A stretch of DNA of 64,000 nt from the NCBI RefSeq assembly GCF_017309185.1, contig NZ_JAEKJZ010000001.1, forward strand, positions 310,001-374,000, written 5' to 3'. Under the pieces are notes generated by a model that was not told the origin of the DNA, made no database searches, and saw nothing but the letters and a program-made list of their open reading frames with translations. This document shows, piece after piece, positions 6,277 to 24,391 of the stretch (position 1 is the first letter of the stretch; every line of letters begins with the position of its first letter). The position numbers were made by a program, and so were the translations under genes. Source of the DNA: Roseibium aggregatum. GTDB taxonomy: Bacteria; Pseudomonadota; Alphaproteobacteria; Rhizobiales; Stappiaceae.

Positions 6277-6684
6277 GGTCTGCTCCAAGATCTGCGGGAC
6301 CGGTTGACGCGAGGTGTCTACGCGGGCTTCTCCTGCAGTGGTAAACACTCTGTTAATACAAGCTAAAGCCTGTTTCGTCCATGTAAAGCAAAGCTGCTAA
6401 AGAGGTTACATGAAGGCGTGGTTAACTCCCCCGCGCCGGTTGCCTGTAACGTCAAAAATACTGAGCTTGCGTTAACTGATCTTGAAGAGGACGGATCGGG
6501 AAGAGCTTTTCGCGCGTTCAGCGGCTCGAGAGCGCCGTAGTTCCGAAGCGCCAAGACGCCGGACGGGTAATATTATGATTTCATGACGCTGTTTACCGAA
6601 TTGCCATCTGCGTGTTACGAATTTTTGGCAAGGAGATCTTTGAAGATCCCTCCAGCAACTTTCCGCCACCTGAGGAGCGCTGAC
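6277..6684. other. Intergenic region between divergent kinase and phasin; no gene seen
   Basis: This 408-base gap must hold the promoters of both flanking divergent genes. Several TTAAC words are present (near 6353, 6421 and 6472). No convincing terminator, RNA gene or small reading frame was seen. Confidence 0.4.
6353..6367 (-). promoter_or_regulatory. CtrA-like half-site pair upstream of the PdhS-type kinase
   Basis: TTAA-N7-TAAA differs at one base from the CtrA consensus TTAA-N7-TTAA. It lies 77-91 bases upstream of the kinase ATG. A second one-mismatch site (TTAA-N7-TGAA) is at 6472-6486. Short AT motifs like this occur by chance, so this is tentative. Confidence 0.25.
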
Positions 6685-7071
6685 ATGAGCATGGACAAGA
6701 CCGGATACGAAATCCCGGAACAGATGCGAGATTTCGCTGAAAAGAGCGTTGACCAGGCCCGCAAGGCCTTTGACGATTTCATGGGGGCTACCCATAAAGC
6801 CGTGTCCAATGTGGAAGACAGCGCCAGCGCGGTGCAGGCCGGTGCCGCCGATGTCAACAAGAAGGCCCTGACCTACGCGGAAGAGCATGTCAACGCCGCG
6901 TTCAAGTTTGCTCAGGATCTCGTCAAGGCCGGCAGCGTTGAAGACATGATGAAGCTGCAGCAGGACTATCTGCGCGGTCAGATGGAAGCCATCGGCGAAC
7001 AGGCGCGGGAATTTTCCAACTCGGCGACCAAGGCTGTCCAGGACGCGGCCAAGGCGGCTCAGAAGAAGTGA
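6685..7071 (+). CDS. Phasin family protein, 128 aa
   Basis: A small amphipathic helical protein expected to coat polyhydroxyalkanoate granules. The start at 6685 is preceded by GAGGAG with a seven-base gap and gives MSMDKTGYEIPEQMRDFAEK; a longer in-frame reading from 6583 has no such site. The body shows the Phasin_2 pattern: EIPEQMRDFAEKSVDQARKA near the N terminus, a central helix with AEEHVNAAFKFAQDLVKA, then LQQDYLRGQMEAIGEQA and an Ala/Lys-rich tail. There is no signal peptide or membrane segment. It is followed 390 bases later by a second phasin, so the two form a pair. No PHA synthase or depolymerase is near, as is common for phasins. Confidence 0.88.
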   Translation: MSMDKTGYEIPEQMRDFAEKSVDQARKAFDDFMGATHKAVSNVEDSASAVQAGAADVNKKALTYAEEHVNAAFKFAQDLVKAGSVEDMMKLQQDYLRGQMEAIGEQAREFSNSATKAVQDAAKAAQKK

Positions 7072-7460: not shown

Positions 7461-7976
7461 ATGACTGCCACCACCACTGCGGAAAAACCGGCTCCGAAAA
7501 CCCGTGCCACGAAAGCGAAAGCCGCGCCGGCCGCCGGCGTTGCGTTCCCGGACTTCGAGGCCTTCCAGCTTCCGAAAATGGAGATCCCTTCAATGTTCCG
7601 TGAAGCGACCGAAAAAAGCATCGAAAGCGCGCGCGAAGCTTATGCAAAGGTCAAGACCGCTGCTGAAGACGCGACCGACCTGATGGAAGACACTTTCGAA
7701 ACCTCCCGTCAGGGCGTTGTCGAATTCAACCACAAAGCAGTTGATGCAGCGAAAGAAAATGCTGACGCCGCTTTCACCTTCATCAAGGACATCATGTCCG
7801 CGAAGACGCTTGCCGAGGCAATCGAGCTGCAGTCCACCTTCGCACGCAAGCAGTTCGACACGCTGAGCGCCCAGACCAAGGAAATGCAGGAGCTGGCAAC
7901 CAAGCTCGGTACGGATGTTTCCTCTCCGGTCAAGGAAGCCATGGAAAAATCCTTCAAGGATCTGAAAACCAAGTAA
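7461..7976 (+). CDS. Phasin family protein with Lys/Ala-rich N terminus, 171 aa
   Basis: The second granule-associated phasin of the pair. The ATG at 7461 follows AAGGAG (7447-7452) at a good distance. Residues 1-30 are Ala/Lys/Thr-rich (EKPAPKTRATKAKAAPAAG), like the basic tails of some phasins that may contact DNA or regulators. From about residue 38 the Phasin_2 core begins (PSMFREATEKSIESAREAYA), followed by NHKAVDAAKENADAAFTFIK and the conserved LQSTFARKQFDTLSAQTKE segment. No membrane segment is present. A strong terminator follows at 8018-8058, so the gene is its own transcription unit. Confidence 0.9.
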   Translation: MTATTTAEKPAPKTRATKAKAAPAAGVAFPDFEAFQLPKMEIPSMFREATEKSIESAREAYAKVKTAAEDATDLMEDTFETSRQGVVEFNHKAVDAAKENADAAFTFIKDIMSAKTLAEAIELQSTFARKQFDTLSAQTKEMQELATKLGTDVSSPVKEAMEKSFKDLKTK

Positions 7977-8017
7977 GCCGGTTGGACGGCGCGCTTCGCG
8001 CCGCACCTCAACTTTCG

Positions 8018-8058
8018 ATGCCCGGAGAGAACTGAGTTTTCTCCGGGCATTTGCTTTT
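8018..8058 (+). terminator. Rho-independent terminator after the second phasin
   Basis: ATGCCCGGAGA pairs with TCTCCGGGCAT around a loop of about 10 bases and is followed by TTGCTTTT. It lies 42 bases after the phasin stop. Confidence 0.85.
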
Positions 8059-8174
8059 CAACAGGCCGGAAATTTACAAAATTCCCGCTTGCCGGTTGGA
8101 AAAAACGAGGTTAGAAGACGTCGTTGCTATCGGCGGCCGGAACATTCGAGGTCCGCGCCCCTGAAAAGCCCTAT

Positions 8175-8251
8175 GCAGACGTAGCTCAGTTGGTTAGAGC
8201 GTCGGATTGTGGCTCCGAAGGTCGGTGGTTCGAATCCACTCGTCTGTACCA
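8175..8251 (+). tRNA. tRNA-His (anticodon GTG), alphaproteobacterial type without G-1
   Basis: The 77 bases fold as a complete cloverleaf: acceptor GCAGACG/CGTCTGT, D arm GCTC...GAGC, anticodon stem TCGGA/TCCGA with loop TTGTGGC (anticodon GTG), T arm GGTGG-TTCGAAT-CCACT, and encoded ACCA. The first acceptor pair is G1:U72 and the discriminator is A73. Most bacteria instead have an extra G-1 paired to C73 in tRNA-His. The G1:U72/A73 form is known from alphaproteobacteria, whose HisRS recognises U72, A73 and the anticodon. The base before G1 is T, so no G-1 is encoded. Confidence 0.96.
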
Positions 8252-8401
8252 CTTCTCCTCAAGAAATATCCTGCAAAGCGCCGGCAAGTTCCGCTGGAAT
8301 GTTGTGCCACCTTGCGGACTCAGGCTGAATGCCGTCGATGTCGTGCCGCTTCCCGTCGATGAAACGCACGGCAATGACCCGTGCACAGGGAGGACCGCGC
8401 A

Positions 8402-8908
8402 ATGGCCTATGAAAGACCTGGACTTGCCTATCGCTTGCTGCGCCTGCCGGGCCAGCTTCTGCTTGCCCTGATCAACGCGACGGCCTTGCTGGTCATCGCT
8501 GCCTGTGTTCTTGCGCTTGTGGTCCTCAACCGGGTCGACACGGCGGGTGAACGGATTGCAGGGGAGGTCACGCAGGCAGCTCTTTCGCGTCTCAAGGTGA
8601 CACCGGACGAATTCAGGTCCAGGCTCTCTGCTCTCGACGAAAGGCTTGAGACGCTGTCCGGCCAGTTGAAGAACCCGGAGCTTCAGGATCACTGGCAGGT
8701 AACGGAGCAGATCAGGGAGCTGAACCGGAACATCGCGGAGCTCAAGGTGGCCGCCAGGGGGATCGCCGCGGCCGGCCCGAAGGTCACGGCGACCGCTTTC
8801 GAACAGGCGGGCGATCTCCTCACCAAAACGCTCTTTGCCCTGCGTGGCTGCGAGGCAGGAAATGCGAGGCCGGAGCGGCCACAGGAACCGGCCAGTCCGT
8901 CGTCCTGA
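8402..8908 (+). CDS. Membrane-anchored coiled-coil protein of unknown function, 168 aa
   Basis: Not recognised. The start at 8402 follows GGGAGGA by seven bases. Residues about 17-42 form one long hydrophobic segment (LLLALINATALLVIAACVLA), followed by a helical region rich in E, L, R and Q (about 60-115; SALDERLETLSGQL and EQIRELNRNIAEL) that looks like a short coiled coil. The tail is Pro/Ser-rich. The predicted topology is a single anchor with the helical part on the periplasmic or cytosolic side. It follows tRNA-His by 150 bases and is convergent with the chemoreceptor gene. No functional clue comes from its neighbours. Confidence 0.6.
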   Translation: MAYERPGLAYRLLRLPGQLLLALINATALLVIAACVLALVVLNRVDTAGERIAGEVTQAALSRLKVTPDEFRSRLSALDERLETLSGQLKNPELQDHWQVTEQIRELNRNIAELKVAARGIAAAGPKVTATAFEQAGDLLTKTLFALRGCEAGNARPERPQEPASPSS

Positions 8909-9016
8909 CCGGGAAGGACGCCCGCTCTGCAACAGATCGGCCGTCCGCAGTTCGCGCGCCGGAATGTCCCCCGTGGGCCTTCCCGGGCAAACGCGATACC
9001 CCCGGAGGGGGCGTCA

Positions 9017-22537: not shown

Positions 22538-24391
22538 ATGAAAATCGGGAAGTTTTTCAACTGGCTGGCAGCCTTCGAAAAATTGCGCAAAACTGCGTCC
22601 ATGTCAAAACGCGTGTTCTACCTGGCGCTGCCGCCTCTGCTTCTTGTCGTCTCGGCTTTCTTTCTCGTCCAACTGGTCCTTGGCCTCGACGAGGAAAGCG
22701 CCGATGCCAAGGCCGCGGAGCGCCTGACGCTCTATCGCCAGACCATCCTGGGTGAATACCAGAAGTACCGCTATCTGCCCTACATGATCGCGCGCGATCC
22801 TCGGGCGACGGCGGCGCTCGGGCTGGGGCAGCCGGTTGAAAGCGCCAATCGGTTCCTCCAGGAAATGGCGCAGAACTCGGGAGCGAACCTGCTTTATGTC
22901 ATGAATGCCAAGGGGACCACGCTCGCTGCCAGCAACTGGCAGGACAAGCTTTCGCTGGTCGGCCGGAACTACGGCTACCGGCCGTATTTCAAATCCGCGA
23001 TGAACGGGGAGGAAGGTCGTTTCTTCGCCATCGGCGCAACGCTGGGCGAACCGGGACTTTTCCTGGCGCGGCCGACGCCTGTCTCGGGAGAAGCGCTCGG
23101 CGTGGCCGTCGTCAAGGTGGACATGGAGCCCCTGGAAGAGGCCTGGGCGGAAGGTGGCGAACTCGTATTCGCGTCCGACGAAAACGGCGTGATCTTTCTC
23201 TCCAGCCGCCCGGAATGGCGCTACAAGACGCTCTCGGTCCTGCCGGAACGGGTTCAGGAGACGATCCGTTCGACCCGCCAGTATGCCGGCCAGAACCTTG
23301 AGCCGGTGAGCGGACAACCGGTGCACTCGAACGGCATCGTGACCATCGACGGGAAGGCATACCGCCACAATTCGGCGGAAGTCGGCCTGTTGGGCTGGAC
23401 CCTGCATTTTCTGGTGCCGGTCGTGGAGACCCGCAAGAACGTCCTGCCGATCTGGACCGCGACCGTCACGCTGTGCCTCGTCTATCTGGTGATCGTGCTT
23501 GTCCTGGGAGGACGGCGGTTGCGCAAGGCCTCCGTCAGGTTACGCCGGGAGTCCGACGAGCTGAAGGAACTCAACGCGAGGCTGCTGGAGGAAGTGCAGG
23601 AGCGCCGCCGGGTGGAAAGCGAACTTCTGGAAGCACAGCGCGGGCTTGCGCGCTCCAGCCGCCTTGCGGCGGTGGGCGAAATGTCCGCGGCCGTGGTTCA
23701 CGAACTGAGCCAGCCGCTGGCCGCTCTTCGAATGTTTGTCGCCGGGACACGAAAATTCCTGGAAAAGGGCGACACGCGGACCGCTTCGGAAAACCTGACG
23801 GAGATCGAATCCCTGCAGATGCGGATGGCGCATATGACGCAGGAACTGAAGCGTTTCGCGCGCCCGGGCGAGAGCCGGATCGAAAAGATCGATTTGAGGG
23901 AATGCATTCGCATGGCGGAAAAAATCGTCCGTCCGCGATTTGATGAAACCGGCGTCTGTTTGGAACTCGATTTGCCGGCGGAGCCTCTTGTGGTGGAAAC
24001 CGCGCCGATGCGGGTCGAGCAGATTCTTGTGAACCTCCTGCGCAACGGCGCGGATGCGGCGGCACCGGAAACGCAGGGCCTGGTGTCGCTTCGGGCTTTT
24101 CCGGAGAGTGGCGAAGCGGTGGTGCGGGTCGCCGACAACGGTCCGGGTATAACCGAAGACCAGCGCGAACGGATTTTCGACCCGTTTTTTTCGACAAAGC
24201 CCGGCTCGGAGGGGATGGGTCTGGGCCTGGCGATATCAATGCGCCTGGTTGAGGATCTGGGGGGCAGCTTGTCAGTCGGCGTGAACGCGCCTAAAGGAGC
24301 GGTATTCGAACTCAAGCTGCCGGCTCCGGCCTGCAGCATCGCCTCTGACGAAACGCCGTCGACCGTCCGGGAAACCGAAGCCGCCAAATGA
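22538..24391 (+). CDS. dctB: C4-dicarboxylate sensor histidine kinase DctB, 617 aa
   Basis: Membrane sensor of a two-component system. A first membrane segment (about residues 28-50, LPPLLLVVSAFFLVQLVLGL) is followed by a periplasmic double-PDC sensor of about 250 residues that includes the RNYGYRPYFKSAM motif typical of DctB. A second membrane segment lies near 305-328. Next come a coiled coil (ARLLEEVQERRRVESEL), HisKA with phospho-acceptor His388 (VVHELSQPLAAL) and HATPase_c (NLLRNGADA, FFSTKPGSEGMGLGLAI). Two starts are possible, ATG 22538 or ATG 22601; neither has a strong ribosome site. The last four bases overlap dctD (ATGA), so the pair is translationally coupled. Ligands are expected to be succinate-like acids or the solute of the downstream TRAP system. 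Confidence 0.9.
   Translation: MKIGKFFNWLAAFEKLRKTASMSKRVFYLALPPLLLVVSAFFLVQLVLGLDEESADAKAAERLTLYRQTILGEYQKYRYLPYMIARDPRATAALGLGQPVESANRFLQEMAQNSGANLLYVMNAKGTTLAASNWQDKLSLVGRNYGYRPYFKSAMNGEEGRFFAIGATLGEPGLFLARPTPVSGEALGVAVVKVDMEPLEEAWAEGGELVFASDENGVIFLSSRPEWRYKTLSVLPERVQETIRSTRQYAGQNLEPVSGQPVHSNGIVTIDGKAYRHNSAEVGLLGWTLHFLVPVVETRKNVLPIWTATVTLCLVYLVIVLVLGGRRLRKASVRLRRESDELKELNARLLEEVQERRRVESELLEAQRGLARSSRLAAVGEMSAAVVHELSQPLAALRMFVAGTRKFLEKGDTRTASENLTEIESLQMRMAHMTQELKRFARPGESRIEKIDLRECIRMAEKIVRPRFDETGVCLELDLPAEPLVVETAPMRVEQILVNLLRNGADAAAPETQGLVSLRAFPESGEAVVRVADNGPGITEDQRERIFDPFFSTKPGSEGMGLGLAISMRLVEDLGGSLSVGVNAPKGAVFELKLPAPACSIASDETPSTVRETEAAK

Follow-up and report, generated by a model that had tools for sequence, protein, structure and literature searches.

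A tRNA-His gene without an encoded G-1 and its histidyl-tRNA synthetase in Roseibium aggregatum

The tRNA-His gene and its surroundings

The window, meaning the whole 64-kb stretch of DNA analysed here, corresponds to C1:310001-374000 of a 6.12 Mb assembly in 15 contigs that is 99.99% complete. Two phasin genes (Pfam Phasin_2) are arranged in tandem on the forward strand, at 6583-7071 and 7461-7976, just upstream of a tRNA-His gene. The second of them is followed by a terminator-like hairpin on the same strand (8017..8051; shuffled sequences average 0.7 such sites), which presumably terminates this phasin gene. A promoter scan detected no sigma-70-like promoter in 7950-8400, and the ORF that closely follows the tRNA gene (8381-8908, forward strand; 175 aa) matched nothing in Pfam or NCBIfam at E 0.001. 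A mechanically called ORF of 248 aa runs antisense through the tRNA gene (8186-8932, reverse strand); it ends in RRVDSNHRPSEPQSDALTN, the translation of the strand complementary to the tRNA, and it is likely spurious. ARAGORN also called a tRNA-Val at 24102-24195, which was rejected as false: it is unmatched by Rfam and overlaps an open frame with VRVADNGPGI...GMGLGLAIS, which we take to be a histidine-kinase ATPase motif.

ARAGORN places the tRNA-His (gtg) at 8175-8251 on the forward strand, and the Rfam model RF00005 matches the same interval with 72.5 bits (gathering score 29; E 6.5e-14), so its status as a tRNA is far beyond chance. The gene is 77 nt long, with the anticodon GTG at 8209..8211 (ARAGORN position 35) and an encoded CCA at 8249-8251. 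The acceptor pairs computed by script are G1:T72, C2:G71, A3:T70, G4:C69, A5:T68, C6:G67 and G7:C66. The discriminator is A73 (position 8248), which forms with the preceding U72 the two changed identity positions (8247..8248), and position -1 (8174) is T, that is, G-1 is not encoded. These ends, with T before G1, a G1:U72 pair and A73, are those given by the initial annotation, and the sequence itself, ARAGORN and Rfam all bear them out. Folding by energy only did not return a cloverleaf (z -1.2, with 26 of 200 shuffles folding equally well or better), which is not unusual for tRNA sequences.

Canonical bacterial tRNA-His carries an encoded G-1 paired with C73; the gene described here shares its anticodon and overall tRNA structure but has T-1, U72 and A73 instead. 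The GTG anticodon, the tRNA score, A73 together with U72, and T rather than G at position -1 are the traits expected of the tRNA-His of the RRCH clade, which comprises Rhodobacteraceae, Rhizobiales, Caulobacterales and Hyphomonadaceae (PMC3937112, in extract). According to the extracts of that study, A73 and the absence of a templated G-1 define the clade, Gly123 is the derived residue of its histidyl-tRNA synthetase (HisRS), and the data set covers Stappia and Labrenzia, which are related to the present organism.

The gene with its flanks was searched in 61 genomes, our own included, and all 61 gave a match, many of those in the same order being partial and maybe belonging to another tRNA. 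The ends were read with ARAGORN in the best 30 loci, our own among them and none from outside the genus. In these, the tRNA body is near-identical and G1, U72 and A73 are fixed (30/30), while the base at -1 is T in 14, A in 10, G in 4 and C in 2. A variable base next to a near-identical body suggests that position -1 acts as leader and lies outside the mature tRNA.

Histidyl-tRNA synthetase, tRNA complement and Thg1 in the genome

The hisS match lies on the minus strand at C1:375863-377152, starting 1.9 kb beyond the end of the window, and scores 377 bits with TIGR00442 (cut-off 286.75). An adjoining ORF of 384 aa matched that model less strongly and is presumably hisZ. The motif-2 loop of the HisRS reads FRNEKPGPGRFRQF and contains KPGPGRF, with Gly where Gln is usual; this Gly was equated by eye with the Gln123 position, the residue name being that used in the extracts of PMC3937112. 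The genome thus has hisS of the derived type, a point that the initial annotation had proposed to check. In a named collection, which may leave out records of this or a very near genome, the protein is at most 91% identical (best segment) to those of Roseibium/Labrenzia, and NEKPGPGRFRQF was present in all 80 loci retained from the 582 relatives found.

ARAGORN, run on the stretches around 44 RF00005 hits of the assembly, called 42 tRNAs, of which one is tRNA-His. A second tRNA-His with G-1:C73, which according to the initial annotation would have spoken against its reading, is not among them. Neither tRNA-Ile(GAT) nor tRNA-Ala(TGC) nor an initiator-like tRNA was among the 42 called, which suggests that the rRNA operons of this assembly are probably missing or collapsed; a further tRNA-His copy may lie in a missing operon. 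Elsewhere in this set, a non-Watson-Crick 1:72 pair was found in one of the two tRNA-Met(CAT) and in both tRNA-Glu. At C7:65095-65356 (L041), two adjoining tRNA-like sequences (RF00005, 51 bits) were left uncalled by ARAGORN; their anticodon loops, CCTGTAA and CATTTAA, lack U33 by eye, and a tRNA-Ser-like fragment follows. The locus has the appearance of a decayed tRNA array, possibly one belonging to a mobile element.

Eukaryotic tRNA-His likewise combines A73 with the lack of an encoded G-1 (PMC6471195, in extract), and a G-1 absent from the gene could be added after transcription opposite A73, as it is by eukaryotic Thg1. We regard this as extremely improbable here, given that the Thg1 family (PF04446) had no match in the genome, in a search whose control matched one of 14 genomes, that of Methanosarcina acetivorans. 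The HisRS loop, moreover, is without the Gln that is reported to contact G-1:C73 (PMC3937112, in extract), and the extracts of PMC4284800 describe these alphaproteobacteria as having no Thg1. The gene therefore shares A73 and the lack of an encoded G-1 with eukaryotic tRNA-His but not, as far as the assembly goes, the enzyme. The extracts of both PMC6471195 and PMC4284800 describe these bacteria as neither encoding G-1 nor adding it.

We are thus highly confident that the only tRNA-His detected in this genome is of the RRCH type without G-1 and is charged by a HisRS with a Gly loop, no G-1 being added. RNase P would most likely cut the precursor at +1 and leave no extra 5' nucleotide, and no G-1 would be added later because this assembly has no Thg1 homologue. 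In the resident HisRS, Gly would stand in for the Gln that contacts G-1:C73, and charging would most likely proceed through A73, U72 and the anticodon, which are the determinants of histidine identity reported from in vitro work on Caulobacter (PMC9976931, in extract). The absence of an encoded G-1, A73, U72, the Gly for Gln in HisRS and the lack of a Thg1 match are all shared with the RRCH system, from which no difference was found; the reported biochemistry concerns other organisms. The pairing of an alphaproteobacterial tRNA-His lacking G-1 with a divergent HisRS, as the initial annotation had it, is upheld by the derived loop, the lack of a Thg1 match and the single tRNA-His among the 42 tRNAs.

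Wang in 2007, Ardell and Andersson in 2006 and Yuan in 2011 reportedly dealt with the G-1-less tRNA-His and divergent HisRS of the RRCH clade. The codivergence of tRNA-His and HisRS is already known from a 2014 study and from reviews, to go by their extracts, and the present gene is an unexceptional case, a clean example of a known change of tRNA identity with little weight as a discovery. In Caulobacter, codon suppression has been carried out with the HisRS/tRNA-His pair of E. coli, which is orthogonal to the native pair (PMC3875453, in extract). The form had also been called rare and a good taxonomic marker. It is indeed an alphaproteobacterial form, but it is general in the RRCH clade, as far as the extracts cited above go, and hence not rare inside that clade; as a marker, it assigns the DNA to the RRCH clade and no finer. 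Besides this use, it offers a fresh check of how tRNA-His and HisRS types covary, for 385 genomes of the class as far as these could be typed.

Covariation of tRNA-His and HisRS types and the base at position -1

Each of the 385 genomes was scanned for the derived tRNA, for the C72-C73 tRNA and, at the DNA level, for HisRS, with one pattern for each. The derived U72-A73 pattern matched 51 genomes; five were removed and two that it had missed (G361 and G238) were added, which brings the total to 48. Matches to the C72-C73 pattern came from 288 of the 385, a number of genomes with a pattern match rather than of confirmed tRNAs, at least one among the matches listed (G232) being un-tRNA-like by eye. 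No genome belongs to both groups, and 49 of the 385 were assigned neither type. Rejected as U72-A73 tRNA-His were the matches in four genomes of family f50 (G047, G172, G268 and G345), at places that ARAGORN calls tRNA-Leu, and a chance match in G002; in all five genomes, the tRNA-His itself has G-1, C72 and C73. Two genomes with a derived HisRS (G049 and G036) yet had no tRNA-His that we could find, and two more (G239 and G314) were matched by neither tRNA pattern. In the 20 ancestral control genomes whose tRNA-His ends were read, which are among the 27 with a Gln loop described below, G-1, G1, C72 and C73 were present without exception.

For two genomes, G143 (copy incomplete) and G176 (contig edge), the 3' part of the tRNA-His alone was read; they were scored as derived because U72 and A73 were read, although -1 and position 1 lie outside the part read. 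G143 has two identical tRNA-His 3' parts about 71 kb apart, at C2:1864311 and C2:1935151, and the former (L074) has no matching 5' half, as at the attachment site of an integrated element.

Of the 48 derived genomes, 47 have a HisRS loop without Gln (45 with Gly and 2 with Asp), 24 of these loops being based on loci and 23 on the DNA pattern alone. The P-G-x-G-R DNA pattern was present in 26 of the 48, and in three of these the loop was also read as protein (G000, G361 and G238). The 21 further derived hisS loci comprise 17 with PGPGR[FY]REF, 1 with IGPGR, 1 with PGPGRFCEF (G057, where Cys replaces the motif's second Arg) and 2 with PDPGR. The latter two, G176 and G272 (family f144; L104 and L088), combine a U72-A73 tRNA-His with Asp, not Gly, in the loop (KPDPGR). 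In the derived genome G294, which is 83% complete, no hisS match above the cut-off was found. Among ancestral-type genomes, hand-picked across families and thus a non-random set, 31 of 32 have the Gln loop (27 plus the four of f50), and the loop of G005 was unread. G175 was rejected as a carrier of derived HisRS: the DNA pattern had matched it, but the loop in its hisS is AQKGR and it carries an ancestral tRNA-His. It is the one false hit that typing by this pattern gave in 29 genomes. Among those of the 385 class genomes that could be typed, the form of tRNA-His varies together with that of HisRS.

The base at -1 was read for all but two of the 48 derived genomes and is T in 35, G in 9, C in 2 and A in none of these 46, counts that are not independent, as genomes within families are kin. 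The frequency of T and the lack of A would suit a mature tRNA-His in which a U-1 left by RNase P pairs with A73, as T-1 can, and substitutes for G-1:C73. The same-genus loci argue against it, with A-1 in 10 of 30 beside T-1 in 14 despite fixed G1, U72 and A73. Before the other 22 A73 tRNAs of our genome, T and A are equally frequent (8 each, with C in 4 and G in 2), so T-1 is nothing special, and the extracts of PMC6471195 have RNase P take off N-1 in these bacteria. We therefore consider a retained U-1 very improbable and keep to the reading of a tRNA-His without any nucleotide at -1, charged by the Gly-loop HisRS.

The nine genomes with G at -1 opposite A73 (G003, G054, G057, G123, G137, G139, G174, G227 and G349) show the arrangement of eukaryotic mature tRNA-His, encoded in the DNA, and indicate that a G is possible there without C73. 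Together with the G-1 in four of the 30 same-genus loci, these 9 of 46 mean that the absence of an encoded G-1 is not a strict feature of the type.

Phylogeny of HisRS

A tree of 59 HisRS proteins was built with the motif-2 loop excised before alignment; its root is a midpoint only, its bootstrap had yet to settle, and 2 of the 7 neighbour rows have long branches. The 28 HisRS with a derived loop form one side of a branch with support of 100/98. Next to them stands a group (support 94/83) of seven Gln-loop proteins from the class (G047 L080, G268 L106, G014 L293, G015 L290, G028 L291, G051 L287 and G175 L289), and the other 24 Gln-loop HisRS are distant, beyond a long branch. In all seven neighbour genomes, the tRNA-His was read and is canonical. 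This hints that, in a neighbouring lineage, HisRS that retain the old loop occur alongside canonical tRNA-His, the tree giving no order or direction, and the seven are possibly relatives of the state that preceded the identity switch. The tree agrees with the lateral origin of the RRCH HisRS put forward in the extracts of PMC3937112.
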